Shown in pieces: positions 17,243 to 37,962 of a DNA stretch of 64,000 nucleotides (its first letter is position 1; every line of letters starts with the position of its first letter). The notes below the pieces were generated by a model. It saw only the letters and a list, made by a program, of their open reading frames with translations. It ran no database searches and had not been told where the DNA came from. The stretch spans positions 1-64,000 of the forward strand of contig JALONG010000014.1 in assembly GCA_025455065.1 (NCBI GenBank). Direction: 5' to 3'. Source of the stretch: Candidatus Kapaibacterium sp. GTDB lineage: Bacteria; Bacteroidota; Ignavibacteria; Kapaibacteriales; UBA4661. Made by a program: the position numbers and the translations under genes.

Positions 17243-20200
17243 ATGCGTACTTTACTTTTGGCGACAATTATGAATACTTGGCATTTATTTCGGGAATCTT
17301 TCATTTCTCTTTGGCAACAGCAAAGCCTTCAAAGCGGTTGTATTTTGTTTCGTCTGCTCTGGAAACCAAGTGTTTATGCTCTTTTGATGACGTTTACCTT
17401 TCACAGTTCTTCGCTTTCACAACCAACAATTTCTACCCAACGTGCCAACGGTCCATTTGTCGGAAAAGTACGCTCCTTAGTTTCCCTGAACAATAGTGTT
17501 TATGCGCTTGTTACCGATGCTCCTGCAAATATTGTCGGCACAATCTCCACGTCGCAAAATGGTGTGTATCGCAGCACAAATAATGGTACTTCGTGGACGC
17601 ATTTGCCGTCGTTTCCCATTCCCGAATCTGCCCTCACGTTACAAGTGCATCTGAATTCCCTTTTTGTTACAACCTCAAACGCGGGAGGGGTGCTGTATCG
17701 TAGCACTGACGAGGGGCGCTCATGGCAAGCCGTTGCACAAAATATGCTTGGAAATGTCACTCATTTGGTAACGATGGGTGATACGCTTTTTGCCAGAACA
17801 GGAACTACCCGATTAAGTTCGATGTACAGAAGCACCGACACCGGTAGAACGTGGAGTTTGATAAGTGCGCCGGGTGCGATTTTGTCTGTCGTGGGTGTTC
17901 GGGGCAGACAAAATACCACGCAAACCAGAACATTACTTTTTGGTGGTTTTTTTCCAAGCATGAATAGCCTTCTACGCAGTATTGACGGTGGTTTGAGGTG
18001 GGATGATAATCTTTCGGTGAGTCCGAATTTGAGTGATTTGATGTTGTTTGATATTGTAGCAAAATTTAATGACGAATTATTTTTAGCGACTAACAAAGGA
18101 GTTCTAGTAAGTACGAATAACGGGCTTGACTGGAGAGCGCTGAATAATGGCATTGAAGGGCGCATCATTACTGATATTGGCATCAACGGTTCAATTCTGT
18201 ACGCTGCGTCTAACGATGGGTTGTTTATCAATACGGGAATAGCTTGGGAGACAGTTCCGGTGACGTTTTCAGGGCTTTCTCTCAGAAATCTTGCCATTGA
18301 TGCAATGCTGTATGAAGAAGGGCGTAGCACGATGCTGATTGGTACAACAAAAGGAATTTATCGGGCTGCCGTCAGCCCAAGCGGGTTACTCGAACGGTGG
18401 GAGCAGTGTAATCGTGGGCTGCCGGGTGTACGAATTGAGCCTATTTCCCTTGCATTTGCAGGAACTGTTCCTCTGGCTGCTACGCAGAATTATGGGGTTT
18501 TTCGTGCCTCTGACGGCTCTTCGTGGTTTGAAGCTAATAACGGTTTAGGACAAATTCCGTTTGCTACAAGATTGATTTCCGTCGGACAGCCTCCTTTGAC
18601 GGTTATTTCTTCCAGAACAAATGCTTTCACAAGCACCGATGCGGGTTTGACATGGCGCTCGGTCAGTTCGGGGCTGACGAATGAACTCATTACAGCCTTC
18701 GGCACGGCAAACAACTCGCTTATTTTTGCCGGCACGCAAACAGGTAGCATCTTTCGCACAAGTACCGCAAATCCTCAAGTTTGGACAAAGATTATTTTTA
18801 ACCCGCTTGAAAGCAGCAATACTCAGATAACAGGCTTTGCACAAAGCGGTAACACGATTTTCGCCTCGACGATAGACGGGCTTCTATCCAGTATTGATGC
18901 AGGTTCGACATGGGTACGTGTCAGTGAAAATATCCTTCCGAGAATACCGCTTTTTTCGATTGTTGCTTCGGGTTCGACGCTTTTAGCCGGGTCGAATAAT
19001 GGTGTGTATTATTCCCATAATGGTGGAAATACCTGGGTTGCTCCGGGTCAGAATGGTCGAATAGGCACGGTGCAGTCGGTCTTTATACGAGATGGGCTGC
19101 TCTACGCCGGAACGCCAAATTTAGGGCTTCACCGTTCCAGCGACAACGGTAGTACGTGGACACGCTTGGCGATTGATGGGCTTTCGGCGGCGACCTCTCT
19201 CGCGGCAGATTCTACGCGCCTTCTCATTGGTTCCAGTAACGGGATTGTCGAAATGCAACTCCCCAGCCCAACGGAATTTCCCATAATTACGAGGCTTCAG
19301 CCCGCCGATTCCGTGTTTATAGGCATTGGCGATGCCAATCTGATTATTGAAGGCAGAAATTTTACCCAAGCAACGCAAGTTCAATGCGAAGGGCGCATGA
19401 TTACAGTTCGATCGGCGAGAGTAACGGAAATATCAGTAACAATTCCTGCCGATATTCTGCTTCAAGAAGGAACAAAGCGTTTGGAAGTCATAAACCCTTC
19501 AGGCGCTCGTGCTTCGACGACATTTCGGGCAGTTCCGCTTCCACCGGATTTCCCTCAACTTCTCATCAATACTAGCTTAGAGCCGTTTGTTGCATTTATT
19601 TCTCAAACCTCTGCTCCACAGACGTATTTTCTGCAAGGGAGCAATGTTCGGGACAGTATTGTTTTGCAAGTGCCGGAATCCTTTGAAATTTCCACCGACG
19701 GCGGAAATACGTGGTTTTCGGGCAGAATTGCTTTTCGTTCAAGTTCCACAACAGTTAATCAATCCGTTTCGGTGCGCTTTCGCCCAACAAATTTACGTGT
19801 TGCAACCGGAGAAATCACGCATAGCGTTGGGGGGATTGTGCTGCAAAGGCTTTCACTCACAGGTTCACCGCGTTCCCTCCAAATCGTTGCTGAACCAAGT
19901 CAGTCACTTGATTTCGGGGCAACGAAACTGGGGCAGACGCTGCGCAGAACGGTAACAATTTCTAATCCGAATAGCGTCTCAATAACCCTTGCCACGGTTA
20001 TTTCCGGCGTAGCTGCGAGGGATTATAGTTTGTCGCAGCGACAAATCATTATTCCGCCCTCCGGAAGAGCGACTGTCGAAGTAAGTTATTCTCCCACAGA
20101 ACGCGGAGAAAGGGAAGCGCTGTTGGAAATTCTTGGTGTTGCTTCCACGGAGATTTCCTTGCGGGGAAGAGGCACGCAGGCTGTCTTTACGCTGAGTCCT

Positions 20201-22072
20201 GCGTCAATAACATTTTCAACTATCGCATTTGTCGGTCAAACATTGCGTTTGCCGCGAGAAACGGTGCGTATTGTGAACACAGGCGATGTTGCTGACGAGA
20301 TTCAAAACGTGCATGTTCTTGGCTCTGCCACTGAATTTCGGGTGATTGGTTTTGACAGGCGAGAACTTGCTCCCAATGAACACATAACCGTAACGATTGA
20401 AGCAAAGCCTGATTCTGTGGGGCTTCGCAGGGCTTCGATTACGCTTGTTACAGGTGACCGATTTTCTACATTTAACACCGTACAAGTTTCCGCACAAGGT
20501 GAGATATTACGCCCACCGCAGCTCGTTTTTCCCAATGTTGGAGTTTTCATTACGCCCGGTACAACGCAGCTTCGTTGGCTACCATCGCCGTTGGCGACCC
20601 ATTACGAAGTCGCTTTTGATAATGTGTTTAATGCTTCGCGGCTTATCAGCAGAAATACGCAAATCGTTCGCGGAACGGGAGCAAATGTGAATGTAGCGCT
20701 GAATAATTCGTATTATTGGACAGTACGCTCGCTGGTGATTCAGGGGCAGGACACGCTGACGAAAAGCGTTTGGCAAAATTGGCTTTTTTTTACGGCTGCT
20801 TCCGAACCGCGTATTTTCGTGCCACCCGTGTTGGATTTTGGTACGGTGACAATGCAGCAAGGCGAAACGCCGCCTCGTAGCCATCCTGTGTATGTAACAT
20901 CAGGTACGTGGCGGGTGTTGGATGTGAATATTGTTCAAGAGCCGGAAAATCCGAATGGGGATTATACGGCGTTTAGAATTGTAAACCGTGATGCCCTCAC
21001 GCTTTCAGGAGCATTATTGAAGCCACTTCCCGAAACCTATCCGATAGCAGTTGCGTTTCGACCGCCTCGCCCAAGAACTACGCCATATACCGCTATTGCG
21101 GAGTTGAGAGTGCAAAACACAACGACGAATGAAATACTCGCAATGCCATTTCAGGTTATCGCTTTGGCGACAATCTGCCCCACGCAGCAAACAGGCGCAG
21201 TGCAAGGAAATGTGGGCTGCCCCGAGACGCTGTTGGCATTGCAACTTGCCCCGCAAAAAGCAGTGTATTCGCCGGGTGATGATGTTCGCTTGCAAGTACA
21301 ACTCCTCAACACGCTCAATGTTTCACCGCCGATTGACCGATTTTTTCGGCGTTTGCGTTTAACGATTGATGTGCAGAATATTTCGCTCTTGTACTTCACC
21401 GAGCGCCTTACGCTTGGTCTTGGCGGTGATGCTGAAAACAGTGTTCGCGTGATTCCGTTCACTTCGTTGGAAACATTGCAGGCAAACACGGCTGTTAACC
21501 CCAACGGCAAAATCCGGCTTGTATTGGAGCGCCCTTCGGGGTTAAGGAATGGTGTTTTGGGGGAAATTCGTGGGAAAGCCGTCATAGGAATTTCGGGTTT
21601 GGGTACAAGGGCGGAGCAGTCTGCCGAATCAGTGATTATGCGTGTTTCCGATGTGCAGTGGATTAGTGACAGGGGGGATGTGTTGGATTCAGGGCAGGTG
21701 ATTGTGTGGGGCAATACGCAAGGTGTTTCTTTAACTTCGCAAGCGCTCACGGCAACCGTAAATACGTGTATTGTGGCGACAAATGGTTCTTTGTTCGTTG
21801 CAAAAACTCTTCCTTTCACTCTTTCAAAAACCAGCCCCAATCCCGCTTCAGAACAAACGTTGGTAAACTTTTCTCTTCAAGAACATTCCCAAACAGAAAT
21901 GGTGCTGGTGAACGTTTTTGGTCAGACAATAAAAACGATTTTCCGAGAAAAAATGTCGCCCGGGGCATATTCCATGCCTGTTCCGTTGCATGATGTTCCC
22001 ACAGGAACGTATTTTCTTATGGTAAAAACGCCTTCAGAAATAGCACAAATTAAAATGGAGGTTGTTCGATGA
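17243..22072 (+). CDS. giant T9SS-sorted surface protein with BNR/Asp-box propellers
   Basis: The protein is about 1609 residues with a hydrophobic signal sequence (roughly residues 40-60). About eleven Asp-box/BNR-like motifs of the form S-x-D-x-G-x-x-W (for example YRSTNNGTSW, RSTDEGRSW, STDAGLTW, RSSDNGSTW) fill the first ~670 residues and predict one or two beta-propellers. An IPT/TIG-like domain, two ASPM-SPD-2-Hydin-like domains, an Fn3-like domain and a second beta-rich region follow. The final ~75 residues are a type A sorting domain (KTSPNPASEQTLVNF ... GTYFLMVKTP). It is therefore exported through T9SS and attached to the surface or released. I prefer the ATG at 17243, preceded by AGGGAA. 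GTG at 17183 and ATG at 17270 are alternatives. It overlaps the next gene by four bases. Confidence 0.85.
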   Translation: MRTLLLATIMNTWHLFRESFISLWQQQSLQSGCILFRLLWKPSVYALLMTFTFHSSSLSQPTISTQRANGPFVGKVRSLVSLNNSVYALVTDAPANIVGTISTSQNGVYRSTNNGTSWTHLPSFPIPESALTLQVHLNSLFVTTSNAGGVLYRSTDEGRSWQAVAQNMLGNVTHLVTMGDTLFARTGTTRLSSMYRSTDTGRTWSLISAPGAILSVVGVRGRQNTTQTRTLLFGGFFPSMNSLLRSIDGGLRWDDNLSVSPNLSDLMLFDIVAKFNDELFLATNKGVLVSTNNGLDWRALNNGIEGRIITDIGINGSILYAASNDGLFINTGIAWETVPVTFSGLSLRNLAIDAMLYEEGRSTMLIGTTKGIYRAAVSPSGLLERWEQCNRGLPGVRIEPISLAFAGTVPLAATQNYGVFRASDGSSWFEANNGLGQIPFATRLISVGQPPLTVISSRTNAFTSTDAGLTWRSVSSGLTNELITAFGTANNSLIFAGTQTGSIFRTSTANPQVWTKIIFNPLESSNTQITGFAQSGNTIFASTIDGLLSSIDAGSTWVRVSENILPRIPLFSIVASGSTLLAGSNNGVYYSHNGGNTWVAPGQNGRIGTVQSVFIRDGLLYAGTPNLGLHRSSDNGSTWTRLAIDGLSAATSLAADSTRLLIGSSNGIVEMQLPSPTEFPIITRLQPADSVFIGIGDANLIIEGRNFTQATQVQCEGRMITVRSARVTEISVTIPADILLQEGTKRLEVINPSGARASTTFRAVPLPPDFPQLLINTSLEPFVAFISQTSAPQTYFLQGSNVRDSIVLQVPESFEISTDGGNTWFSGRIAFRSSSTTVNQSVSVRFRPTNLRVATGEITHSVGGIVLQRLSLTGSPRSLQIVAEPSQSLDFGATKLGQTLRRTVTISNPNSVSITLATVISGVAARDYSLSQRQIIIPPSGRATVEVSYSPTERGEREALLEILGVASTEISLRGRGTQAVFTLSPASITFSTIAFVGQTLRLPRETVRIVNTGDVADEIQNVHVLGSATEFRVIGFDRRELAPNEHITVTIEAKPDSVGLRRASITLVTGDRFSTFNTVQVSAQGEILRPPQLVFPNVGVFITPGTTQLRWLPSPLATHYEVAFDNVFNASRLISRNTQIVRGTGANVNVALNNSYYWTVRSLVIQGQDTLTKSVWQNWLFFTAASEPRIFVPPVLDFGTVTMQQGETPPRSHPVYVTSGTWRVLDVNIVQEPENPNGDYTAFRIVNRDALTLSGALLKPLPETYPIAVAFRPPRPRTTPYTAIAELRVQNTTTNEILAMPFQVIALATICPTQQTGAVQGNVGCPETLLALQLAPQKAVYSPGDDVRLQVQLLNTLNVSPPIDRFFRRLRLTIDVQNISLLYFTERLTLGLGGDAENSVRVIPFTSLETLQANTAVNPNGKIRLVLERPSGLRNGVLGEIRGKAVIGISGLGTRAEQSAESVIMRVSDVQWISDRGDVLDSGQVIVWGNTQGVSLTSQALTATVNTCIVATNGSLFVAKTLPFTLSKTSPNPASEQTLVNFSLQEHSQTEMVLVNVFGQTIKTIFREKMSPGAYSMPVPLHDVPTGTYFLMVKTPSEIAQIKMEVVR

Positions 22073-24252
22073 GTAGCACAAACCGTATCATCCCTCAATG
22101 TTTGCCGTTTTTGGGAAATTTTCTCATGGGTTGTGTATTCATGGTGTTGATTGCATCTTCTACATTTTCACAAACCTCGAAACCTCGTTCCAATCAGCCT
22201 TGCGACACAATTCAACGTATGATAATCCGAGATAATATTCCCCTTTCGTTTACGCGGTTTGGTCTTGGCGGTGATTACGCTGTACCGCTTGTGAACGCCC
22301 AATTTACTGGGATTCCGGGTATTCCGTCCTGTTGTCCGGGATATGGGTTTTCGGGTGGTCTTGCCTTTGGATTCGGTGTGTTTGCTGAGTGGGCGCTTTT
22401 GCAAAGCATTGGTGTTGGCGCTCAGGTGCGCATGAACATTGCAAACCTTTCCTTCTCTCGCAGAGAATATCAACCGCTTTACGGTCTTATCAATATTCCG
22501 CTTTTGTATTCGCTGCAAACAAACACTGTGAGTATTGATATTTCGCCCTATATCTTTTGGAGACCGCTTGAATCCTTAACCTTGCAAGCAGGATTCTCCC
22601 TAAGTTCGTATTTACCAACTGCATTTACCACGAATGAAAAAATTGATACTGCGGGGTTGTCGTTTATTACCAATGGGCAGTTTTCACGGACAAGAAATGA
22701 TACAAGCGGCATTACATCTGCTTTTGGCGGGGCAGTACCTTCGATTCGTCTTGGTGTGAATTACGAACTTCCATTGTTGGCAAATAAGACGCTGTTTATT
22801 GCCCCCGAAGCCTCATTCTCGCTAGGTTTGGCAGATATTGTGCAGAATTTGCAAGGCTCAAATCCCCGCTTGACATTCAGTGCTGTTCGCTTTGGAGCAA
22901 CTCTCCGTTATTCCCCGCAAACACGATTGACCGAACAGCAAATTACACAAATGCAAGAACAGGCAGATGAAGAGTATCGCCGCCGCCTTGAAGAGTGTGC
23001 AAGGCTGACAAAACCTGTTGAAAAAGATGTCGTTATTGCAAAAATAACATCCATCCAAAGTATTCCCAAAGAAGGTAGCGCGGAGGAGAACCCTACCATC
23101 AACATTGAGGAGTTTTTAGCCTCACGGTCGCGTTACGTGCTAAACACGATATTTTTTGCTCAACAGTCAAGTGATATTTCTTTGAGATACCGTAAAATAC
23201 AACCCGAAGACAGAGGTGCTTTTCGTATTGAAAATTTCGCTGATGCCGGGGTGTTGCAACTTTACTATCAAGTATTGAACATCATCGGAAAGCGCCTAAC
23301 GACAAATCCGAAAGCAGAAATTACTCTTGTTGGTTACGCTGATGGTCTTTCAGAAAAAAATGACAAAAAACTTGCTTTGGAGCGCGCAGAAAAAGTGAAG
23401 TTTTATTTGGTGAATGTTTGGAACATTGATGAAAACCGAATTAAGGTACAAACGGCAATGTCTCGCGTCCCTGTTCCTAACGACGGCGATGAAATATTTG
23501 AAGCTGAAGAGCAGCGCAAAGTCGAGATTCAATCAAATAATAAAGCCATTTTGGAAGAGCTTCGTTTTGATTACACTTTGCGAATAATCAACCCAAAGCT
23601 CGTTCGTATCAATTTTGAACTAGCGTCCGGTTCGCCTCTCAAACAATGGTCTGTGGAAGGTTCTCAGGTAGTTCAAGGAAGCAAAAAATCGTTGGAAGAC
23701 CGAACACTCTTTGTTACAAAAGGAACGACGATTCCTCAAGCGAAATTTGTGGATTGGGATGTTGCCAATCCCAAACAGCAACCGCAATCCCGCGAGGCAA
23801 TATCGGTGCGTATCAGCGCGTCGGACGTGAACAATTATTCGCCCGATTCTCCAATTCGAGAAATTCCCGTTAAACTCATTTCTGTTGCTGATAAAGAACG
23901 CGAAGGCAAAGCAGATAAGCGCATTGACAGTTACACACTTTTTTCCTTTGCTTACGGAACAAATGCCCCAATAAGTGGCAATGCCGATGTGCAGCGTATT
24001 GTGGCTGCGATTAAACAAACACTCAAACCCGGGGCAAAAGTTATTGTTACCGGTTATACGGACACGCGCGGAAATGAAATTACCAATGGAATTTTAGCAC
24101 TGCAACGTGCGAATGCGGTTGCGGGGCTTATTGGTTATCCCAATATGACGGTGAATAGCGAAGGTGCAACAAAAATCAATGATAACGCGCTACCGGAAGG
24201 ACGATTTTACAACCGTTTTGTGCAAGTTGATATCGAAACACCTCTCCGGTAG
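22069..24252 (+). CDS. double OmpA-domain outer-membrane protein (paralog 1)
   Basis: This 727-residue protein has a signal peptide (about residues 15-35), an N-terminal beta-barrel-like region (about 60-285) and a short charged helix. A first OmpA-like domain (about 345-495) contains FFAQQSSDI, NPKAEITLVGYAD and LALERAEKVKFYLVNVW. A beta-rich insert precedes a second OmpA-like domain (about 620-727) with SFAYGTNAP, VIVTGYTDTRGNE and LQRANAVAGLI. OmpA domains usually bind peptidoglycan. It starts inside the stop of the giant T9SS protein (ATGA at 22069), so the two are translationally coupled. Close paralogs are at 26663 and 37963. Confidence 0.85.
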   Translation: MSSTNRIIPQCLPFLGNFLMGCVFMVLIASSTFSQTSKPRSNQPCDTIQRMIIRDNIPLSFTRFGLGGDYAVPLVNAQFTGIPGIPSCCPGYGFSGGLAFGFGVFAEWALLQSIGVGAQVRMNIANLSFSRREYQPLYGLINIPLLYSLQTNTVSIDISPYIFWRPLESLTLQAGFSLSSYLPTAFTTNEKIDTAGLSFITNGQFSRTRNDTSGITSAFGGAVPSIRLGVNYELPLLANKTLFIAPEASFSLGLADIVQNLQGSNPRLTFSAVRFGATLRYSPQTRLTEQQITQMQEQADEEYRRRLEECARLTKPVEKDVVIAKITSIQSIPKEGSAEENPTINIEEFLASRSRYVLNTIFFAQQSSDISLRYRKIQPEDRGAFRIENFADAGVLQLYYQVLNIIGKRLTTNPKAEITLVGYADGLSEKNDKKLALERAEKVKFYLVNVWNIDENRIKVQTAMSRVPVPNDGDEIFEAEEQRKVEIQSNNKAILEELRFDYTLRIINPKLVRINFELASGSPLKQWSVEGSQVVQGSKKSLEDRTLFVTKGTTIPQAKFVDWDVANPKQQPQSREAISVRISASDVNNYSPDSPIREIPVKLISVADKEREGKADKRIDSYTLFSFAYGTNAPISGNADVQRIVAAIKQTLKPGAKVIVTGYTDTRGNEITNGILALQRANAVAGLIGYPNMTVNSEGATKINDNALPEGRFYNRFVQVDIETPLR

Positions 24253-24305
24253 TATTGCGGTCAATATATGCTGCTGACCCCATCAAACCTCATTTTTATC
24301 ATGGT

Positions 24306-26666
24306 ATGAATTATTTTGTGCAAGTCTTTTCTCGAATCCAACATTGGAGAAGAGTAGTTTCGGTGCTACTTTTCTCAATCATTTCTCTGTCCCTTTCGGC
24401 GCAATCCCTACCGGAGCAGCAGTGTAGCGGGGCAATTCCGATTTGTCGGGTCACAATATCCAATCCCACAGGCTACCCTCGTTTTGCTGAACAACCGATA
24501 TTTCCTTGCTTGGGCAGAGCAGAAGCGCCTGTGTGGTACGAACTCACTGCCCAGAATACCGGTTCGTTTGGTTTTGTGATCAACACTATTGACCCGACTG
24601 ATGATTATGATTGGGCGGTGTATGACATAACGGAACGAGGTTGTGCAGGGATTTCTGCGGCAATCGTGCAGCCGATAAGTTGCAATCGCTCACCGGCATT
24701 TGGATTGACAGGCGCGACACGAATGGGTATGAGTAGCAATGTTGGTGCAGGTTTTGGCGCTTCTCCTGTCAATGAACTTATCCCTGTTCAACGGGGTAGG
24801 CGTTATGCGTTAGTTGTTTCGCATTATTTACGTCGAAACTTTCCACGCGGTACAAATTCAGGATTTTCACTGAATTTTTCTGAATCATCTGCGGGTGTGA
24901 TTCCGCAATCTGATTCAAGCTCTATTCGTATGACAAACCTTGAACCCGTAACGTCTGCCTGCGGAATCACAGGAATACGTGTAACATTTTCCGAACCGAT
25001 TTTGCTACAATCGGTGCAACCAAGCGACTTTCAACTTACGGGTTTGGGGCGGGTAATTTCCGGTGCTGTCGAAATTCGTTCTCTTCTGCACGGTATGATT
25101 TCTCCCAACGAGCCGATTTCTCCGAGGTTACAAGACCGTACTTTTTTTGTTATGCTCCAGACTTTGCCAACTGTTTCAAGCGTTTACACATTTTTATTAC
25201 AAGGAACAATCGCCTCAGTTTGTTCCGTAACTTCAACCGCAAACGCAACCATTGAATTAACCCCGCGTCCGCCTTCGGTAGAAATTTTTGGCAATCTGCT
25301 TTTTTGTTCTGGAAACAGCACCAATTTGTCTATTCCGAATGAGTTTGAAACAATTCGCTGGATTGATTCCGCAAATACTGTTCTCAGTGAAAAAAATAGC
25401 CTCACTGTTACCCGTCCCGGAGTTTACCGTGTAAGTGCACAAAGTTCCGGCGGATGTATGGTTAGCTCAAGCGTTACCGTTTCCTTACGAACAAATACCT
25501 CACTTTCTGTTCGGGGAGGTCTTACGTTTTGTGAGCCGGATTGTAATTTTGTAGAAGCAGAAAGCGGTTATGAAAATTACGAATGGCTTGATTCTGCCGG
25601 AAGGCAGATTGGACAAGGAAGAGGGCAGTGTTTACGAGAGCCGGGGGTATATCAAGTTCGTGCGTCGGGGAATGGTTGTTTGGCACAGTCCGCACCCTTT
25701 CGCATAGTCCGCAATAGCGCACCCACGCAGATTCCAAGTATTTCTCGGCGAGGTAATTTGCTTTCCGCTCCTCCGCTTCCCGACACAACATTTTTCTACG
25801 AATGGCGCAGAAGGAGGAGCGCGGAGCGGTTCGACTATATTGCTCTGGCATACACCCAAACTTTTTCGCCTCCCGATACAGGCAGATACACGGTTGCATT
25901 GTATAATCGCAACGGATGTTGGACTGAATCCGAGCCTCTTGATTTTCGGGCCATTTCGGCAAATGTCTCCTTGAGTGTGGGGAATGTTTCGGCAAAGCAA
26001 AATGAATTTGTGAACGTACCAATTCTGCTAAGAGGCTCACAAAACCTACAAGCATTAACCGCAGACAGCCTCCGGGCGGTGCTACGGTTTAATGCACGAT
26101 TGCTTTTTCCCGAAGACACGAAAATACGCCGCTTTTCTGTGGAAAACGGTGAGCGATTAGTTGAACTTGTCCTGCCCTTGCAAGCGCAGCGAGGGGATAC
26201 TCTCTCAACATTCCGCTTTCGTGCGATGCTTGCCAATACGACAGCAACGATTTTGGCACTTCAAGATATAAACACGTTGCCACCGAATCTTGGTCTGCGT
26301 GGAACGTCGCAAAATGGCTTGTTTACGCTCGCAGGGGTATCAACAGCAGGTTCTGTGAGGCTTATCCGGCAGCGCACAACTCTTGTAATTTCAACTCAGC
26401 CGAATCCTGTCGATAAAACCTTTACACTCCTCATAGAATCAGGCTTTTCGGCAAATTTACTTGTGAATATTGCCGATGTTCTTGGAAATATCGTTGCTTC
26501 GCACAAATTTACGAATATCGCCAAAGGAGTCAATGAGGTTGAAATTCCCTCAGACAGCTTACCACAGGGCTTGTACAGACTTATCGCAAAGGCTGTCAGT
26601 ACGGAAATGAGCGATAATGCCAATAATTCAGAAATGGCCACCACAACGTTAATGGTGATTCGATGA
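24306..26666 (+). CDS. T9SS-sorted adhesin-like surface protein
   Basis: This is a ~786-residue protein with a signal peptide (VVSVLLFSIISLSLSAQ). Its N-terminal domain begins QQCSGAIPICRV and resembles the cysteine-bearing N-domains of gliding-associated surface proteins. Ig-like and PKD-like cysteine-containing modules follow, then a cohesin-like beta domain (LSVGNVSAKQNEFVNVPILL) and a type A sorting domain beginning STQPNPVDKTFTL. The ATG at 24306 is preferred over an upstream TTG at 24255, because it directly precedes a normal signal peptide. It overlaps the next OmpA gene by four bases. An extracellular adhesin or matrix role is inferred from the domains only. Confidence 0.8.
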   Translation: MNYFVQVFSRIQHWRRVVSVLLFSIISLSLSAQSLPEQQCSGAIPICRVTISNPTGYPRFAEQPIFPCLGRAEAPVWYELTAQNTGSFGFVINTIDPTDDYDWAVYDITERGCAGISAAIVQPISCNRSPAFGLTGATRMGMSSNVGAGFGASPVNELIPVQRGRRYALVVSHYLRRNFPRGTNSGFSLNFSESSAGVIPQSDSSSIRMTNLEPVTSACGITGIRVTFSEPILLQSVQPSDFQLTGLGRVISGAVEIRSLLHGMISPNEPISPRLQDRTFFVMLQTLPTVSSVYTFLLQGTIASVCSVTSTANATIELTPRPPSVEIFGNLLFCSGNSTNLSIPNEFETIRWIDSANTVLSEKNSLTVTRPGVYRVSAQSSGGCMVSSSVTVSLRTNTSLSVRGGLTFCEPDCNFVEAESGYENYEWLDSAGRQIGQGRGQCLREPGVYQVRASGNGCLAQSAPFRIVRNSAPTQIPSISRRGNLLSAPPLPDTTFFYEWRRRRSAERFDYIALAYTQTFSPPDTGRYTVALYNRNGCWTESEPLDFRAISANVSLSVGNVSAKQNEFVNVPILLRGSQNLQALTADSLRAVLRFNARLLFPEDTKIRRFSVENGERLVELVLPLQAQRGDTLSTFRFRAMLANTTATILALQDINTLPPNLGLRGTSQNGLFTLAGVSTAGSVRLIRQRTTLVISTQPNPVDKTFTLLIESGFSANLLVNIADVLGNIVASHKFTNIAKGVNEVEIPSDSLPQGLYRLIAKAVSTEMSDNANNSEMATTTLMVIR

Positions 26667-28741
26667 AAACAATTCTGTTCTTCTTGATGACGTTTGCTGT
26701 TGTTCAAAGCCCATTCACCAATGCACAATCCCCGCAAACCGCTCCACAGCCTATTCGCTGGGGCGTGCAGGGTATTTACGGATTACACCAACATAGTGCA
26801 AATTTTACGGCACTTCCGGGTGTTCCAAATTCTTCCCCCGGCTTTTCGGGCGATATTGGTACAGGCTTTGGGGGCGGAATACTTATGGAAATTCCGATAA
26901 TTTCCTCCGTTCCTGATTTGTTTCTTGGGTTACGAGCCTCTTACGCGCTTCACAATGCGCGATTTGTAACAAATGAGGAAGCCACAATTAGTGTAGATGG
27001 CTCGCCGATACCCGCGATTTTCCGGCATTCCTTAGCATTTGCGTTACCGCTTATTGCGGTGGATATGCTTCCTGCTTGGAGGTTTCCGGATGCGCTGAAT
27101 GGTTTGCACATTATGGCAGGTTTACGGGGAGGGTTCTGGGTTGCACCAAAATTTTCGCAAACAGAAGAATTGATTGAAGGCACAGGGAAGGCGCAGTTTA
27201 GCAGTGGTGGTACGCAGCGCAATGTGCGTACAAATGAGGATTTACCGTCTGCCGCCCCTGTTCAGTTAGCGGCGTTGTTGGGAATAGGGTATGATTTCGC
27301 ACTGACCGACACGAAAAATATTTTACTCACTCCCGAAGTTCAGTATGGATTACATTTAACGCAGTTTGTTTCCGGTCTTTCGTGGCAGGCAAATACGCTT
27401 AGGTTGAATCTGGCAATCAAATACAACCCTGCGGCAAAAGCGCCCGAAGCAGCACAAAAACTACAAGCACAGACAATAACCCAGACCCAAATCAACGCTG
27501 TCACCGCTCCCAACGAGTCGCTTAATGCAAAACCCAAAACGCTTACCGCCTCTGTGAAAGCCTACTCTGTAGATGCTGATGGAAACGAGCACGAACTTAT
27601 CATACTCAAAACGGAAGAATTTATTTCGCGCCAACTTTACCCGCTTCTTAATTACGTCTTTTTTGACCAAAATTCGGATGTAATTCCGGCACGGTATGAG
27701 CGCATAACCACCGCAAGAACGAGAACATATACGGAGAAGTCCTTAAGCGGTAGAACAACGCTTGATATTTATTATGATGTGCTGAATGTCATCGGAAAGC
27801 GTTTGGTGGATAATCCTACGGCAACGATTCGGCTTGTGGGGTGTTTGGGTGAAGTCGGCTTCGGACCTCAATCGGAAGAAAATGACCCGTATCTTGCGCT
27901 TCGCAGGGCAGAATCAGTAAAACAATACTTGACAGGAACATGGGGCATTGCTGGAAACCGCATCCGTACTGAAGGCAGGGCATTGCCGGAAAAACCGTCT
28001 AATTCTAAAAATGCGACAATCGGCGCGGAGGAAAATCGGAGAGTGGAGATATATTCAGACTCTTGGGCGATAGTGCAGCCTGTTGTCATTGCCGACACCT
28101 TGCGTGAGACGGATGCTCCGGTGGTGAAATTTCAAATGAGCGCAGAATCCGACGAAAGCCTCACGAAATGGACGCTTCGGGCATTGCAAGGGAATAAAAA
28201 ATTGAAGGAGTATTCGACACTCGGCGCACCAGACCCACAATACCAATGGCGACCAAGCCGTGAACGCAGCACCATTCCTACGACTGAAGAGCCTCTGCGA
28301 TACGAATTGGAAGTTGTCAATGCTGCCGATAAAGATTTTACGGCGCAAAACACTATTGCGGTTGAGCAAATTACTATTCAACGAAAGCGCCAAAATCGTA
28401 TTGCCGACAAAGAAGTGGATGTCTATCGTCTTATCGGTTTTCCCTTTGAACAAGCGGCTGTGGAGGGGGTAAATTTGCGAACTATCAATGAATTTGTGAA
28501 GCCGAATTTGAAGCCCGAATCTGTGGTAACAATTATCGGTTATACCGACGCAAGCGGTGATGCGGCTTCTAACCAGCGTCTCTCTGACTCTCGTGCGGCA
28601 GCAGTTGGCAAAGAATTAGCTATGGGATTCATAAAAACTCGCGGAGTGGGCAGTCGTACTGCACTTTATACAAACCTCGCCCCCGAAGGGCGCTTGTATT
28701 CACGTACGGTTGAAGTTCGTGTTGAAACTCCTGTACGCTAA
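26663..28741 (+). CDS. double OmpA-domain outer-membrane protein (paralog 2)
   Basis: This 692-residue paralog has the same layout as the protein at 22069. It has a signal peptide (residues 3-22), an N-terminal barrel-like region, and a first OmpA-like domain (YVFFDQNSDVIPARY, NPTATIRLVGCLGE, LALRRAESVKQYLTGTW). A beta-rich insert leads to a second OmpA-like domain (VVTIIGYTDASGD, LSDSRAAAVGKEL). Its ATG sits in the stop of the adhesin gene (ATGA at 26663). Membership of the same operon suggests that each secreted protein has its own outer-membrane/peptidoglycan partner, but no interaction can be shown from sequence. Confidence 0.85.
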   Translation: MKTILFFLMTFAVVQSPFTNAQSPQTAPQPIRWGVQGIYGLHQHSANFTALPGVPNSSPGFSGDIGTGFGGGILMEIPIISSVPDLFLGLRASYALHNARFVTNEEATISVDGSPIPAIFRHSLAFALPLIAVDMLPAWRFPDALNGLHIMAGLRGGFWVAPKFSQTEELIEGTGKAQFSSGGTQRNVRTNEDLPSAAPVQLAALLGIGYDFALTDTKNILLTPEVQYGLHLTQFVSGLSWQANTLRLNLAIKYNPAAKAPEAAQKLQAQTITQTQINAVTAPNESLNAKPKTLTASVKAYSVDADGNEHELIILKTEEFISRQLYPLLNYVFFDQNSDVIPARYERITTARTRTYTEKSLSGRTTLDIYYDVLNVIGKRLVDNPTATIRLVGCLGEVGFGPQSEENDPYLALRRAESVKQYLTGTWGIAGNRIRTEGRALPEKPSNSKNATIGAEENRRVEIYSDSWAIVQPVVIADTLRETDAPVVKFQMSAESDESLTKWTLRALQGNKKLKEYSTLGAPDPQYQWRPSRERSTIPTTEEPLRYELEVVNAADKDFTAQNTIAVEQITIQRKRQNRIADKEVDVYRLIGFPFEQAAVEGVNLRTINEFVKPNLKPESVVTIIGYTDASGDAASNQRLSDSRAAAVGKELAMGFIKTRGVGSRTALYTNLAPEGRLYSRTVEVRVETPVR

Positions 28742-28800
28742 TGGCGCAGAACGACAATTCTATCGGAAACCATCATTGTTGTATTTTTATTTTTAACTCA

Positions 28801-29274
28801 ATGAAAAATATCATCTTAACTGTATTGTTTTTATTGGTTTTTTCTCTTCCGACGTTTGCTCAACAAGCCGATGAGGAAACTAAAGGAAAGGTTGTTCAAG
28901 TCATTAAGCAACTTTTTGAGGGAATGAAAACAAATGACAGCAGCAAAGTAGCTCAAACATTTCATCCATTGTTGTCCTTACATTCTTACTCTTTCAAAAA
29001 CGGGAAACCACAAGTTCGCCAAGAAAGTATTGCCGATTTTCTTAAAGCCGTTGCAGCACCAAAAGCGCAAGGGGTTGTGTACGATGAAAGAATACTGCGG
29101 TACGAGGTAAGCATAGATGGGGGATTGGCTACTGTTTGGACTCCATATGAGTTTTATATTGGAGATAAATTTAGTCATTGTGGCGTTAATGCCTTCCACT
29201 GCGTATTGACGGAATCGGGGTGGAAAATTTCGCACATCACAGACACACGGCGCAAAGAACCATGCGCAAAATAA
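28801..29274 (+). CDS. exported NTF2-like protein
   Basis: This 157-residue protein has a clear signal peptide (residues 1-21, ending TFAQQ) and an NTF2/SnoaL-like fold signature. A helix with VIKQLFEGMKTNDSSKVAQTFHP comes first, then beta strands ending in HCVLTESGWKISHITDTR. Such proteins are small cone-shaped enzymes or binding proteins, and the ligand is unknown. The ATG at 28801 is preferred because it begins the signal peptide. It closes the T9SS/OmpA gene cluster, 60 bases after paralog 2. Confidence 0.78.
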   Translation: MKNIILTVLFLLVFSLPTFAQQADEETKGKVVQVIKQLFEGMKTNDSSKVAQTFHPLLSLHSYSFKNGKPQVRQESIADFLKAVAAPKAQGVVYDERILRYEVSIDGGLATVWTPYEFYIGDKFSHCGVNAFHCVLTESGWKISHITDTRRKEPCAK

Positions 29275-32462: not shown

Positions 32463-35400
32463 TTATCGAACAATCTGCAAGGGGCTTACAGAAGTGCCGT
32501 TCTGAGCGCGAACTCTTACGAAATACATTCCGCTTTGAAGTTCCGCCGTGCTAAGATTCATACGGTGTTTGCCGCTTGTGAAGGATGCTTCGGGAAGGCT
32601 AATAATCACTGCACCTAAAACATTCACAACATCAACCTGCACACTGCTTGCTTGTGTGAGTGAAAATTCCACCGTTGCTTGCACAGAAGCGGGGTTCGGG
32701 AAAACGCTCATAGCAAAAGCGCTTTGTTCCTCGTTTCGGACGCTTACGGGGTTGCGTAAAATGTTTGTGCCATCAATTTTTCCGTCACTGTCGCGGTCAA
32801 GAAGTTGCGTAAAACCGCTTCTCTGGAGGTCTTCCCAATTACTCACAACAAAAGTTTGTGTTTCGCCCGCACCAATACTGATGTTATTGAAGGTTTGCCC
32901 TGTACCGCGAGAAAAATTGATGGAATAATTTTTTGGGGAAGGACCGTTTTCTACGACTACCTGAGCGCCGTCATTGACGATACGGATATTCATCGTATCA
33001 TTTTCGCGGAATGCTGCTCCCGATATTCGCACGACATTTTCCCAGCTAGTACGGTCTTCAGATAAAGTAGCCAAAATCATACTCCAATTTGGAATAGCGC
33101 TTTGTGTTGTAAATCTTGCCGTGCTGTTTGCAAAGTCGGAAACGAGATTTTGTCCGCGTTGTGAAGAAGGAGTCCAATTACTCCAAACAGTGAAGCGGTT
33201 ACCGTCATTGACCGACACATCGGCTTCAGCGCCTGCACTTTGAGGTAGATACCGAATTGATAATGAAGACAGGTTTTCATTTGGTATGAGATAACCTTCA
33301 ATTCCAGGCATTGATTCTTCTAAACTACCTGTTTCCCGCAAAATCGGTTGAGCATCAGGAATTTTTATATCTTCACCAAACGGGTCTTTTTCAGTGTTGA
33401 TAATAGAACCACCGGAAGGTGTTCTCACTTCCACCGTCGGTTGTGCTTGGTCAATAGTTGGTGCGTTAAATCGTACCGTTGCGACGTTTAATGGCGGCAG
33501 AATTTCCTCGCTTTGCAACGCAACAATCGGTCTTCCTGCGTAATTGATTGTTCTTTCGGTACGAGCATTTGTGCCTACGGTAAACCCGCTTCCTGTGCCG
33601 CTCCAAACAAAATTGCCAACACCTGCGTTTAATCCTGCCAAATCATAGCGCCAGAAATTGGTGGCTCTTTCTACAAAAATATAGTTGTTCATTTGTCCGG
33701 GATGATTCATGTCGTAAATAAAGACGGAATCAGCTGTCGCATTTCCCATTGCATCCAAACGACTTCCTATTCTGTACGGTACCACAGCGTGTCCACCGCC
33801 ATTAGGACCGGAAAACTTAATGCTGATAGTGGGATGTTGTTGGCGGTCACCTGTTGCAATAGCATCACGGATGATCTGTACTGTTCTGTTGGGCGTGTGT
33901 CCGGCTGCTCCTATTCTGAAATTCTGATAGACTTGGTGAGCATGAATAATTTTGCGGGTGGCATTACTAACAGGAACGTTAAACAATGGTGTTTGGGCAT
34001 TGTAAATACCTGCATACCCGAAAATACTCGTAATAGCAAACCCATAACAAGAACCTCCCCATTGGCTTGGATTCCAACTGCTTGTTGCATTGACAGTAGG
34101 AGTTTGTACACCGTTATTATTTACATAAACAGGAATTGCACGACCAAGCCCAAGAGCAAAATCATCCCAAAAAGGAAAGATATTTGGTTTGGAAGTAGCT
34201 GCTTTTGTAGCCCATTCCGGCGATGCGGCAGCGAAATTGCTGAAGGGTGCTACACTGTAGTTTATCGCATCAAGGTATGCAGCATTCCACACTTGGTTAC
34301 TCGAATTAGAGAAGTTCCAGCCGTGAACGTTGGGGATAAATTGTGAGCCAATCGTAGCAGGCATAGAACCTAGCGTAGATTCCGTTTGTGCGGGACGGAG
34401 GACAAAAGAATTTGCCGATGAATACGAAGAAGCCGTGCCATTGGCATCAATGGATTGAACGCGCCAAAAATAGGTCGTTCCGGCAGCATTAACGGTGAAA
34501 TTTGAAGCCAATAGTAAAATTGAGGTGTTTGCGGTATTTGTTTGTAAAACGCCCTGACCTTGGAAGTTTGTGAACGCCATATCACTGGCAATTTGCAAAC
34601 GATATGTTACCGCACCCGGAACTAATGTCCAGAAAAATCCAACACAAGGAGAATTACAGCTAAAATACTGAATGTCGCTGTTGTTTGCCGGATTTACAAG
34701 TGTTGGTGGGGCAAATGCGGCGGGTTGCATCATTGGCATTGCCCCTGTAAAGTTTTGCCCTGCCTGACTCACACCCGCTACAACAGTTACCATGCGGGTT
34801 ACCGGCGTAAAGGTCAGCGTGCCTGAATTTGGTGTCAGCGTGTATGTACCTGCGGGAACATCAAGGATTATATAATTTCCACTATTGTTCGTTGTCGCGT
34901 TTCTTGTTCCGTCGCTTACGGTTATGCCCCCCTGACCAACGCCATTAACGGTGATTGTACCGGAAATGTTTGCTAATTGCGCAACAAAATTCACATTTGC
35001 AACGTTAGCTTCGTTAATGGTGGTCATTTGTGAAGCCTGAGTAAATGTCGTTCCTGCGCGAGCAGCAGAGACGGTATATGCACCATTAGCCATGTTCGTC
35101 AAGGTATAAAAGCCACCTGCGTCGGTAACGGTGGTATTTGCTCCGGCACTAATAGTAACGCCCTGAATCCCTGTGTTAGGATTAGCCGAACTTGTTACTC
35201 GTCCGCTAATGGTGAAAATTGGTGCGGTAGAAGCAGCACTAAAGTTTTGATTGGCTATTGTCGCGCCGTTTGCTAGGGTAACATTCAACGTTTGTGGGGT
35301 AAATGCAAACCCTGCAAACGACGGAGCAAGTGTGTATGAGCCTCCGCGAAGGTTGTTAAGAGCATAATCTCCCACAGCATTTGTTGTCGCGGTTGTACCA

Positions 35401-37493
35401 CCAACGGTAAATGTAACACCAGCCAAACCCATACCGTTTGCTCGAGTGATTCTACCAAGTATGCGCCCAAGCGGGGCTGTGAAATTCACATTGGAAAGTG
35501 CGGCATTTGAAACGGTAATATTTTGCGACGGCGATGCAAAGGTTATTCCTGTACCACTTGCTGTAACGGTGTACATTCCTGCGGGTACGCCCGGAAACGA
35601 GTAATTGCCCGATGCGTTGGAAACGGCATTACGAGGCGGGTTTGTGGAAAGCACCATATTGACACCGCTTACACCTGAGCCGTCGAAATTGCTTATTACC
35701 CGTCCTGAAACCGTGAATGAAGCAGGAGGATTAGCAACACCGGTAAAATTGATGTTGCTAACACTTGCGCCGGAGGACAACGTTACCATTGTCGAAGCAG
35801 GGGTGAAGGTTGCACCGGTAACGGAGGCATATACTGTGTAGGTGCCGGGAGGAAGTGAACGAGCATACTGACCACCAACACCGGAAGTAATTAACGTTAA
35901 AAAGCCATTCGAGGCGTTTGAAAAAAATACCGAAACATTTGTTTGTGGATTGCCGCCAACCGTGACCGTACCGCTAATTTGAGAAGTAAGGGCGGTGAAA
36001 TTTTGTACAACATTTGCGCCATTCACCGTTACAACGGCTCTATTATTCTGAAAAAACATTCCCGGAGCAGTAGCGACCAAGCTGTAAGTGCCATTGCTAA
36101 CATTGGTAAAAGCAAATGTACCTTGCGGACCGGTAACAGCATTTTTTCCCGTAGAAAGCAGCAGCGTAATATTCGGCATCGGTTGACCTTGACTATTCAA
36201 CACCGTTCCAGAAATAGTATAGGTTGGTTGAACAATAAGAGATGCCGTAAAATCAAGCATTGATTGGCTTGTTCCATTAACAACAGTAATGGTACGGCTT
36301 GCGGGGCTAAATGAGTAGCCGTTTTTTGTTGGTGTAAGCGTATAAGTGCCGTTGGGCAAATTTCCAATCGTAAACCCTCCGTTTGAGCCTGTCGGGGACG
36401 TTAATGCGCCTTGAATCAAGGAACCCGTAAGGCTCATTGTAACGCCCGAAAGCGCTTGATTGTTAATTCGAGTTGTACCGCTTAGATTTGCCAATAGTGC
36501 GGTAAATGCTACATTGGTAACATTTGCGTTGTTAATAGTGGCGGTCGAAGCACCATTCCCAACAAATGTGAGAACAGGCATACTTGCTGTGAGGGGATAT
36601 GTGCCGTTTGCAAGCCCTGTCAAGGTAAAGCTCCCATTTTGACTATATGTTTGTTTGCCGCCGCCGCTAATCAAAACATTGGTCAAACCCTGTCCATTCG
36701 AGTTACGCACGGTGCCGGAAATAGAAAAGGTTGTTGGTTGCGCCGGAGTTGTTGCCGGTGGTGTTAATGTCGCTTGCAACGATTGAATTTGCGCTATTTG
36801 TGCAGAAGAAATTTGAAATACTACATTGGAGGAAGCAACATTTGCGCCGCTAAAAAGGCTTTGGCGAATCATAAAATCACTTGCCGTAGCACCACGTAAG
36901 CCTACTTGAACTAGGCTGGAGGGAAATTGGAGAGGATTGGTCACAGGCGAAAAGTTTGCCCTAATCACGCCATTTTCCTGCAAAATCACTTCAAAGGTCA
37001 TGGAAAATGTCGTTGTCATTCCGGCATTAAACAGCGTAACATTTTGATAGGTTACAATGAACTGACGATTTGGAGCTGTTCCCACTGTTCTTGTGAGAAT
37101 TTGTGTATTTCCTGTTCCTCGTAAATCTGTTGCAAAGGCAGCAATTACGCCACTTCCGCCGGAGGCTGCCAAGGGATAGAAGAATTTTTGGCTTGATGTA
37201 ATCGGTGTTCCAAAGGAAAGCCAACCGTTTACGCTGACATTGACGGTGGAATAATTTGCGCCATTAAAAGGGAACACAAAGCCGATTGGACGAGCAGGAA
37301 AAACATCATCATCTAAATTGATACCGCCACCCAAAATTGTTGGAGCTCCTCCTTGTGTGAGCGGTGAAGCCGCTCCGGCGGTAATGGTGTAAGCATTTAC
37401 TTGGGCAAAACTTGGGACATAAATCCCTACGGTAAAACCGACGACCAATGCCATGATGATGGCAACAAAGCGAGTACGAGAACAGGTCTGCAT
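32463..37493 (-). CDS. giant T9SS-sorted protein with eight CarboxypepD-reg-like repeats and papain-like domain
   Basis: The mature start is the ATG at 37493 (1676 aa), supported by GGAG seven bases upstream. In-frame starts further upstream lack this. The order is a signal peptide (about residues 8-30), a nidogen-like N-domain, and eight repeats beginning with variants of SISGTV (about residues 250-915). An Fn3-like domain comes next, then a cysteine-peptidase-like domain with SQWGGSCYGFA (Cys near 1147), GGGHAVVPY (His near 1233) and IYDMNHPG (Asn near 1262). This arrangement fits a papain-fold Cys-His-Asn triad. The last ~80 residues are a type A sorting domain (VFPNPASVQATVEFS). It is likely a secreted or surface-held protease or peptidase-like adhesin. 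Confidence 0.85.
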   Translation of the reverse strand: MQTCSRTRFVAIIMALVVGFTVGIYVPSFAQVNAYTITAGAASPLTQGGAPTILGGGINLDDDVFPARPIGFVFPFNGANYSTVNVSVNGWLSFGTPITSSQKFFYPLAASGGSGVIAAFATDLRGTGNTQILTRTVGTAPNRQFIVTYQNVTLFNAGMTTTFSMTFEVILQENGVIRANFSPVTNPLQFPSSLVQVGLRGATASDFMIRQSLFSGANVASSNVVFQISSAQIAQIQSLQATLTPPATTPAQPTTFSISGTVRNSNGQGLTNVLISGGGKQTYSQNGSFTLTGLANGTYPLTASMPVLTFVGNGASTATINNANVTNVAFTALLANLSGTTRINNQALSGVTMSLTGSLIQGALTSPTGSNGGFTIGNLPNGTYTLTPTKNGYSFSPASRTITVVNGTSQSMLDFTASLIVQPTYTISGTVLNSQGQPMPNITLLLSTGKNAVTGPQGTFAFTNVSNGTYSLVATAPGMFFQNNRAVVTVNGANVVQNFTALTSQISGTVTVGGNPQTNVSVFFSNASNGFLTLITSGVGGQYARSLPPGTYTVYASVTGATFTPASTMVTLSSGASVSNINFTGVANPPASFTVSGRVISNFDGSGVSGVNMVLSTNPPRNAVSNASGNYSFPGVPAGMYTVTASGTGITFASPSQNITVSNAALSNVNFTAPLGRILGRITRANGMGLAGVTFTVGGTTATTNAVGDYALNNLRGGSYTLAPSFAGFAFTPQTLNVTLANGATIANQNFSAASTAPIFTISGRVTSSANPNTGIQGVTISAGANTTVTDAGGFYTLTNMANGAYTVSAARAGTTFTQASQMTTINEANVANVNFVAQLANISGTITVNGVGQGGITVSDGTRNATTNNSGNYIILDVPAGTYTLTPNSGTLTFTPVTRMVTVVAGVSQAGQNFTGAMPMMQPAAFAPPTLVNPANNSDIQYFSCNSPCVGFFWTLVPGAVTYRLQIASDMAFTNFQGQGVLQTNTANTSILLLASNFTVNAAGTTYFWRVQSIDANGTASSYSSANSFVLRPAQTESTLGSMPATIGSQFIPNVHGWNFSNSSNQVWNAAYLDAINYSVAPFSNFAAASPEWATKAATSKPNIFPFWDDFALGLGRAIPVYVNNNGVQTPTVNATSSWNPSQWGGSCYGFAITSIFGYAGIYNAQTPLFNVPVSNATRKIIHAHQVYQNFRIGAAGHTPNRTVQIIRDAIATGDRQQHPTISIKFSGPNGGGHAVVPYRIGSRLDAMGNATADSVFIYDMNHPGQMNNYIFVERATNFWRYDLAGLNAGVGNFVWSGTGSGFTVGTNARTERTINYAGRPIVALQSEEILPPLNVATVRFNAPTIDQAQPTVEVRTPSGGSIINTEKDPFGEDIKIPDAQPILRETGSLEESMPGIEGYLIPNENLSSLSIRYLPQSAGAEADVSVNDGNRFTVWSNWTPSSQRGQNLVSDFANSTARFTTQSAIPNWSMILATLSEDRTSWENVVRISGAAFRENDTMNIRIVNDGAQVVVENGPSPKNYSINFSRGTGQTFNNISIGAGETQTFVVSNWEDLQRSGFTQLLDRDSDGKIDGTNILRNPVSVRNEEQSAFAMSVFPNPASVQATVEFSLTQASSVQVDVVNVLGAVIISLPEASFTSGKHRMNLSTAELQSGMYFVRVRAQNGTSVSPLQIVR

Positions 37494-37962
37494 AACTGCT
37501 CCACAAAAGAAAAGGGTTAGGAAAATTTGCATCCAGCACAAATACCTTGTAGCACTAATGATGCAATGATTTTGAACATTGAAGCGCAGAACAATCCCTT
37601 GTTTCCCGGATTTACAAGGAAAAGCGCGAAAGAAAAGATGTCGCTTCAAAAATGCAGGTGCAATATCGTTTGCACATTGGAAAGACAAAACATTTTTGGG
37701 GCGAAATGTTCAAAAAATGTGGCGAATTGCAGCGAATGGAGGCACATTTTAGCAAAAATTCCTACACGATTGAACAGTGAAAAATAGCATTTATCGGCAA
37801 AAAAACGAAAAAATTTCACCTTCATTTGAAATATTTCACCCTTCAAATACTCTCAAAACAAGATTCTTTTGTAAATACGACATAAGTAGCGTATTTTCAG
37901 AGGTTTGTATAATTGTTGAATATTGGGTAATTCTCGTTTTTGGACAGTTCTAAAAAAACTTA
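37494..37962. promoter_or_regulatory. divergent promoter region between T9SS and OmpA-type genes
   Basis: These 469 bases separate two outward-facing genes and have no convincing open frame. Visible elements are a direct repeat ATTTCACC at 37813-37820 and 37833-37840 (exactly 20 bases apart, about two helical turns) and an inverted repeat AACATTT/AAATGTT at 37689-37710. They could serve co-regulation of the divergent pair, but no regulator can be named. Confidence 0.4.

Follow-up and report, generated by a model that had tools for sequence, protein, structure and literature searches.

Type-A T9SS cargo genes recurrently paired with barrel-bearing double-OmpA genes in Kapaibacteriales: candidate two-gene modules for surface anchoring

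Dedicated barrel partners of proteins exported by the type IX secretion system (T9SS) are known for type-B cargos only; these bind cognate PorP/SprF barrels that act as shuttles and probably as anchors, and some adjoin PorE-like wall-binding proteins (PMC9143113, PMC12618676). PorV is described as serving all type-A cargos, which are anchored or released via PorV/PorU without dedicated partners and in P. gingivalis are anchored to A-LPS (PMC12618676, PMC9143113). The locus described here resembles the type-B system of CTD cargo, PorP/SprF barrel and PorE-like (PD40-OmpA) anchor in combining a large T9SS surface protein, an adjacent barrel gene and an OmpA-type peptidoglycan domain; wall anchoring has been proposed for that system, and orphan cargos and barrels occur there too (PMC9143113, PMC12618676). 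It differs in that the sorting domain (CTD) is of type A, the barrel is of the OMP_b-brl_2 rather than the PorP_SprF kind, barrel and two OmpA domains lie in one polypeptide and a cohesin-like domain in front of the CTD marks the partner cargos. The best reading of this comparison is that the module would be a one-piece counterpart, for type-A cargos, of the assembly of type-B cargo, PorP-like barrel and PorE-like wall anchor. This suggests that the new part is the type-A cargo with a one-piece barrel/double-OmpA partner, with surface anchoring itself being of a known kind.

The window, meaning the whole stretch of DNA analysed, comprises 64,000 nucleotides of Candidatus Kapaibacterium sp. (contig JALONG010000014.1, positions 1 to 64,000). 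It contains five consecutive ORFs, all on the + strand, whose domains agree with the gene order given in the preliminary description, namely propeller cargo, first OmpA protein, adhesin (here cargo 2), second OmpA protein and NTF2-like protein. The features are:

17243-22072 (+): cargo 1, with BNR/Sortilin-like propeller repeats, a choice-of-anchor-D/ASH Ig region and a type-A T9SS CTD
21836-22039 (+): type-A sorting domain of cargo 1 (Por_Secre_tail), 29.1 bits
22057-22061 (+): GGAGG, Shine-Dalgarno-like, within the end of cargo 1 and 7 nt 5' of the OmpA1 start, read from the sequence
22069-22072 (+): ATGA, overlap of OmpA1 start and cargo 1 stop, read from the sequence
22069-24252 (+): OmpA1, with N-terminal beta-barrel (about residues 63-281), OmpA-like domain, beta-sandwich and second OmpA-like domain
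24303-26666 (+): cargo 2, with a CHU_C-associated Ig match, a cohesin-like pre-CTD domain and a type-A CTD
25821-26438 (+): cohesin-like region of cargo 2, just 5' of the CTD, found by a model trained on other families only (E 1.6e-26)
26400-26597 (+): type-A sorting domain of cargo 2, 28.4 bits
26663-26666 (+): ATGA, overlap of OmpA2 start and cargo 2 stop, read from the sequence
26663-28741 (+): OmpA2, double-OmpA outer-membrane protein
26756-27424 (+): predicted N-terminal barrel of OmpA2, about 8-9 strands, residues 32-254 (AlphaFold2 model of moderate confidence; family profile OMP_b-brl_2)
27602-28063 (+): first OmpA-like domain of OmpA2, Arg kept and Asp lost (Pal 1oap, Z 13.0; PorE C-terminal domain 6top, Z 10.9)
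28397-28738 (+): second OmpA-like domain of OmpA2, Asp and Arg present (3td5, OmpA-like with bound peptide, Z 14.3)
28801-29274 (+): NTF2-like exported protein (Lumazine_bd_2/SnoaL-like match)
37963-39984 (+): third double-OmpA paralog, transcribed divergently from the cargo gene 32463-37688 (-)

As had been described, each OmpA gene starts inside the stop of the cargo gene before it, and such overlaps are found at the two cargo-to-OmpA junctions only, the other two junctions being short gaps. OmpA1 has its GGAGG 7 nt before the start, whereas a clear Shine-Dalgarno motif is absent from OmpA2. Judged from the signal peptides, the most likely start codons are ATG 24303 for cargo 2, 50 nt past OmpA1, and ATG 28801 for the NTF2-like gene, 59 nt past OmpA2; the longest ORF of cargo 1 starts at GTG 17183. 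The type-A CTD (PF18962/TIGR04183) is clear in cargo 1 and borderline in cargo 2: the genome-scan scores lie above the cut-off of 27 bits for both, the whole-protein Pfam scores slightly below it (24.0 and 24.5), and with TIGR04183 cargo 1 passes at 23.2 (cut-off 23) while cargo 2 stays below at 17.5. Searching the window cargos with Pfam and NCBIfam at E values up to 0.1 returned no type-B CTD (TIGR04131/CHU_C). The genome encodes a T9SS translocon, with a SprA/Sov homolog above the cut-off. Cargo 2 had no match by sequence among solved structures, Rfam had none in the window, and a plasmid search returned a single weak match to a gliding-motility C-terminal-domain protein. Elsewhere in the window (32463-39984), the minus-strand cargo is a 1741-aa type-A protein with repeated CarboxypepD_reg domains and lies 274 bp from the divergent third double-OmpA gene.

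OmpA1 and OmpA2 each contain two PF00691 stretches, and the profile of their family was built on the C-terminal half, i.e., OmpA-like domain, beta-sandwich and OmpA-like domain. With this profile, about 30 members are found in the source genome, 3-32 in each of the 21 genomes of the relatives search (21/21 positive) and at least one in 33 of the 80 genomes sampled in the class, while outside the class only four single matches occur among the 198 genomes of the phylum sample. The genus of the window holds 20-32 copies per genome, including forms fused to vWA, WD40 or BNR domains. Since the class is rich in T9SS sorting domains with or without the family, double-OmpA proteins appear to be an accessory of some T9SS lineages and not to be needed for secretion. 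Among named records, the closest are proteins of Ignavibacteria/Bacteroidetes MAGs, at about 31% identity and without T9SS neighbours; a search with a single OmpA protein found three distant members unlinked to cargo, and L033-L035, three of the five members that lie in the window or near named relatives, have no T9SS neighbour. These three are close double-OmpA orthologs in Ignavibacteria/Bacteroidetes MAGs, 78-89% identical, conserved beside peptidase-like and glycosyltransferase genes with no T9SS cargo adjoining.

The recurrence of the pairing was examined in nine genomes (three from the genus of the window, six from other families of the order) at 129 loci, with cargos called by a locally built CTD model and a cargo counted as upstream if on the same strand and within 500 bp. 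A cargo gene lies directly upstream of 57 of the 147 family members, directly downstream of 16 and on either side of 69, which bears out the expectation that the pairing is conserved in relatives. In the non-overlapping gene set, a cargo is upstream of 56/144 double-OmpA genes as against 18/1189 other genes of the same loci (39% vs 1.5%), a background rate that is, if anything, inflated, since all loci were selected for holding a double-OmpA gene. Exact 4-bp overlaps are found at 21 of 56 cargo-to-OmpA junctions and at 47 of 684 other same-strand junctions, and all 21 of the former, which make up the same number out of the 57 junctions in the full set of members, read ATGA, GTGA or TTGA when checked. 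The cargo/double-OmpA pair is thus real, lineage-wide and beyond chance, and the idea that it is peculiar to the window is rejected by its recurrence in all nine genomes. Downstream cargos were considered as equal partners, but only 4/12 of them carry the cohesin-like domain described below, near the rate of large unpaired cargos, and hence they were left out of the pair count.

The wider proposal that each secreted protein has a dedicated anchor does not hold, as the CTD proteins of the source genome number at least 150, of which only about ten have a double-OmpA gene directly behind them, leaving about 93% of its cargos without a double-OmpA partner. Conversely, more than half of the family has no cargo next to it, and the same is true of about 40% of its barrel-type members. 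Linkage goes with the barrel: 57 of 110 members with a barrel stand behind a cargo, as opposed to 0 of 37 that lack a barrel match (p 4e-10), so that the upstream-cargo link is restricted to barrel-bearing members. Those without a barrel match include PD40, BNR or vWA/WD40 fusions. By the N-terminal profile of the family, 26 of 46 members match OMP_b-brl_2, and the N-terminal barrel segments and their profile have no match to PorP_SprF. PorP/SprF (TIGR03519) was likewise not found in the source genome and four relatives of the order, the same model matching 12 of 20 other Bacteroidota genomes searched as a control; the view that the partner is distinct from PorP/SprF therefore stands. Barrel strands are seen in the moderate-confidence models of both OmpA1 and OmpA2. 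The barrel profile had no significant match among solved structures, and the structure-comparison list for the OmpA2 model was filled by OmpA domains.

With these AlphaFold2 models (six sequences each; mean pLDDT 61.8 and 69.7), both OmpA-like domains of OmpA2 match peptidoglycan-binding domains, residues 579-691 matching 3td5 and residues 328-465 Pal. Of the 147 members, 117 have both the Asp and the Arg of the binding site in the second OmpA-like domain, 54 in the first and 120 in one domain or more. In the window, both domains of OmpA1 and the second domain of OmpA2 have them, and in the third paralog the binding-site residues are incomplete in both domains. It is therefore plausible from sequence and models that the OmpA partners act as an outer-membrane plus peptidoglycan anchor. 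They share an OmpA-C-type peptidoglycan domain with PorE, the T9SS lipoprotein of Porphyromonas gingivalis, the first OmpA2 domain matching 6top; unlike PorE, they contain nothing of a TPR, PD40 or carboxypeptidase-like kind and carry their own barrel, and against the PorE model they give short matches in the OmpA region only, far under the cut-off. OmpA/OprF have the same layout of an N-terminal 8-9-stranded barrel and a C-terminal peptidoglycan domain, whereas here two OmpA-like domains are split by a beta-sandwich, 3-32 paralogs occur per genome and the genes are linked to those of secreted cargos.

Cargo and OmpA partner are inherited together. On a tree of 146 members, the linked and unlinked states change 31 times, compared with 48.8 +/- 3.1 times after shuffling (minimum 38). 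In the 48 pairs whose cargo is complete, the similarity of the cargos correlates with that of the OmpA proteins (Mantel 0.30, as against at most 0.16 in 1000 permutations), and in 29/48 the closest cargo and the closest OmpA come from one and the same pair; a fixed pair passed on vertically would suffice for this, with no need for contact between the two products. Orthologs of OmpA1 in two congeneric genomes each follow an ortholog of cargo 1 with a 4-bp overlap, and relatives of cargo 2 in three genomes (G000, G005, G007) and in the more distant G015 each have a family member directly behind them. The alternation of cargo and OmpA genes is present in the window as described, but its interpretation as one designed operon is rejected: the corresponding locus in G007 (L052) has the order cargo1-OmpA1-VOC-NTF2 and lacks the second pair between OmpA1 and the NTF2-like gene, so that the window is better seen as two pairs side by side. 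The NTF2-like exported protein occurs near the OmpA1 ortholog at varying distance in three congeneric genomes (window 28801-29274; L052:10586-11104; L078:19207-19785), being close to it in G007 and about 8 kb away in G005. It was rejected as a part of the module, no similar gene being found beside other double-OmpA pairs.

The partner cargos have a region in common just before the CTD. In the window's genus, a model built from the partners in other families detects it in 25/30 partners and 3/29 neighbouring non-partners, and training in the reverse direction gives 20/27 and 3/27; among the 56 cargos far from any family member, a control taken from the source genome only, 8 carry it. When only cargos of at least 800 aa are compared, the region is present in 24/29 partners and 8/23 unpaired cargos (p 6e-4). 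As a cross-validated classifier of partners, the pre-CTD region reaches an AUC of 0.905 and 0.949 (0.886 at >=800 aa), compared with 0.67 and 0.72 for the CTD, which lends little support to the idea of a CTD peculiar to partner cargos. The family profile of the region matches the cohesin structures 2vn5/1g1k (E 6e-5 to 7.5e-5), and 7 of 42 region members match Pfam Cohesin; the region of cargo 2 alone has no such match. Unlike in cellulosomes, a single candidate domain stands here beside a T9SS CTD, and no dockerin partner was identified. Exclusiveness to partners was rejected given the 8/56 unpaired carriers, and while cargo 2 has one such domain, none was detected in cargo 1 or its two orthologs. 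Partner cargos are furthermore rich in ASH/HYDIN-type Ig domains (21/39 vs 6/38) and in BNR-type repeats.

Taken together, these observations favour, with slightly better than even confidence, a reading in which the two genes of each cargo/double-OmpA pair form an anchoring module that ties a surface protein to the cell wall. The cargo would be exported by the type IX system via its generic type-A CTD, and its OmpA partner would be made from the same transcript, often via the 4-bp overlapping start, presumably by operon expression with translational coupling. The N-terminal barrel would seat the partner in the outer membrane, one or two C-terminal OmpA-like domains would grip the peptidoglycan, and the outer face of the barrel would hold the cargo by physical contact, probably through the cohesin-like domain left at the C-terminus once the CTD is removed. 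That this domain docks on the cognate double-OmpA barrel, making it a dedicated outer-membrane receptor through which the cargo is tied to peptidoglycan, is offered more tentatively, as a possibility that falls somewhat short of being probable. A different role for the barrel, that of a dedicated shuttle or assembly partner collecting the cargo from the translocon, with wall binding only positioning it, has a precedent in type-B cargos, whose adjacent dedicated barrels are shuttles needed for secretion (PMC12618676) and whose gene order is alike, with the cargo first and the barrel next. Shuttles, however, read the CTD, and since the CTDs of partners are hardly distinguishable from those of non-partners, such a role becomes less likely; most cargos are moreover exported without such a partner and type-A CTDs are reported to use PorV, so that shuttling is considered unlikely.

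Equally, the two genes might share an operon only as co-expressed envelope genes whose products have no contact, the cohesin-like domain being general to large cargos. Operon pairing is by itself no proof of contact, many family members have other neighbours and about a third of the large unpaired cargos (8/23) carry the domain, but mere co-expression falls short because double-OmpA proteins without a barrel, which are envelope proteins as well, are never found behind a cargo. The excess over the background rate, the joint inheritance of the pairs and a domain association that persists after length matching also speak against it, and it is judged improbable. It would be far less probable still that double-OmpA proteins are general tethers between outer membrane and wall that were expanded in this lineage, with the cargo pairs being a minor use and the cargo perhaps a lid or ligand of the barrel. 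The high copy number in the window's genus and the vWA, WD40 and BNR fusions fit such tethers, yet the fixed order of cargo then OmpA, the 4-bp overlap and the cohesin-like domain of the partners would be left unexplained. If the pairs are true anchoring modules, part of the type-A secretome would have cargo-specific wall tethers, and surface retention could be tested pair by pair, with a candidate domain for the docking; if docking is also true, type-A cargos would have their first dedicated partner system and cohesin-like domains a new use.

Barrel and wall-binding parts also occur in other arrangements. In six loci a lone barrel gene is followed by a gene of the PD40/double-OmpA type, for which PorE or the PorE-like CHU_0125 family is the best model, the match of these PD40/double-OmpA relatives to the PorE model being at 1e-37; this looks like a split PorP/PorE-type unit and is present about once per genome (e.g., L097:6751-10379, L105:6733-10429 and L021:5792-9517). 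A stand-alone barrel homologue (L141:17805-18647, +) lies 184 bp behind a cohesin-bearing cargo of 1925 aa. Given this gene and the six split loci, the barrel and the wall-binding part occur fused or split, with or without a cargo, and these forms should be useful for tracing the origin of the PorP-PorE type of anchor. Two further genes (L009:9065-13723, - and L023:9114-13853, -) encode large fusion proteins that lack barrel and CTD and unite a vWA domain, a WD40 propeller, an ASH-type Ig domain and the double-OmpA part, with similar members of 1515-1623 aa in G005 and G007. In L022:7568-9850 (+) a BNR propeller is joined straight to the double-OmpA part without a barrel, two kinds of module that in the window are found in the separate adjoining genes of cargo 1 and OmpA1. 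Lastly, about twelve T9SS type-A cargo genes, mostly of 400-700 aa, stand in a row on one strand elsewhere in the source genome (L140, C95:16500-36400).
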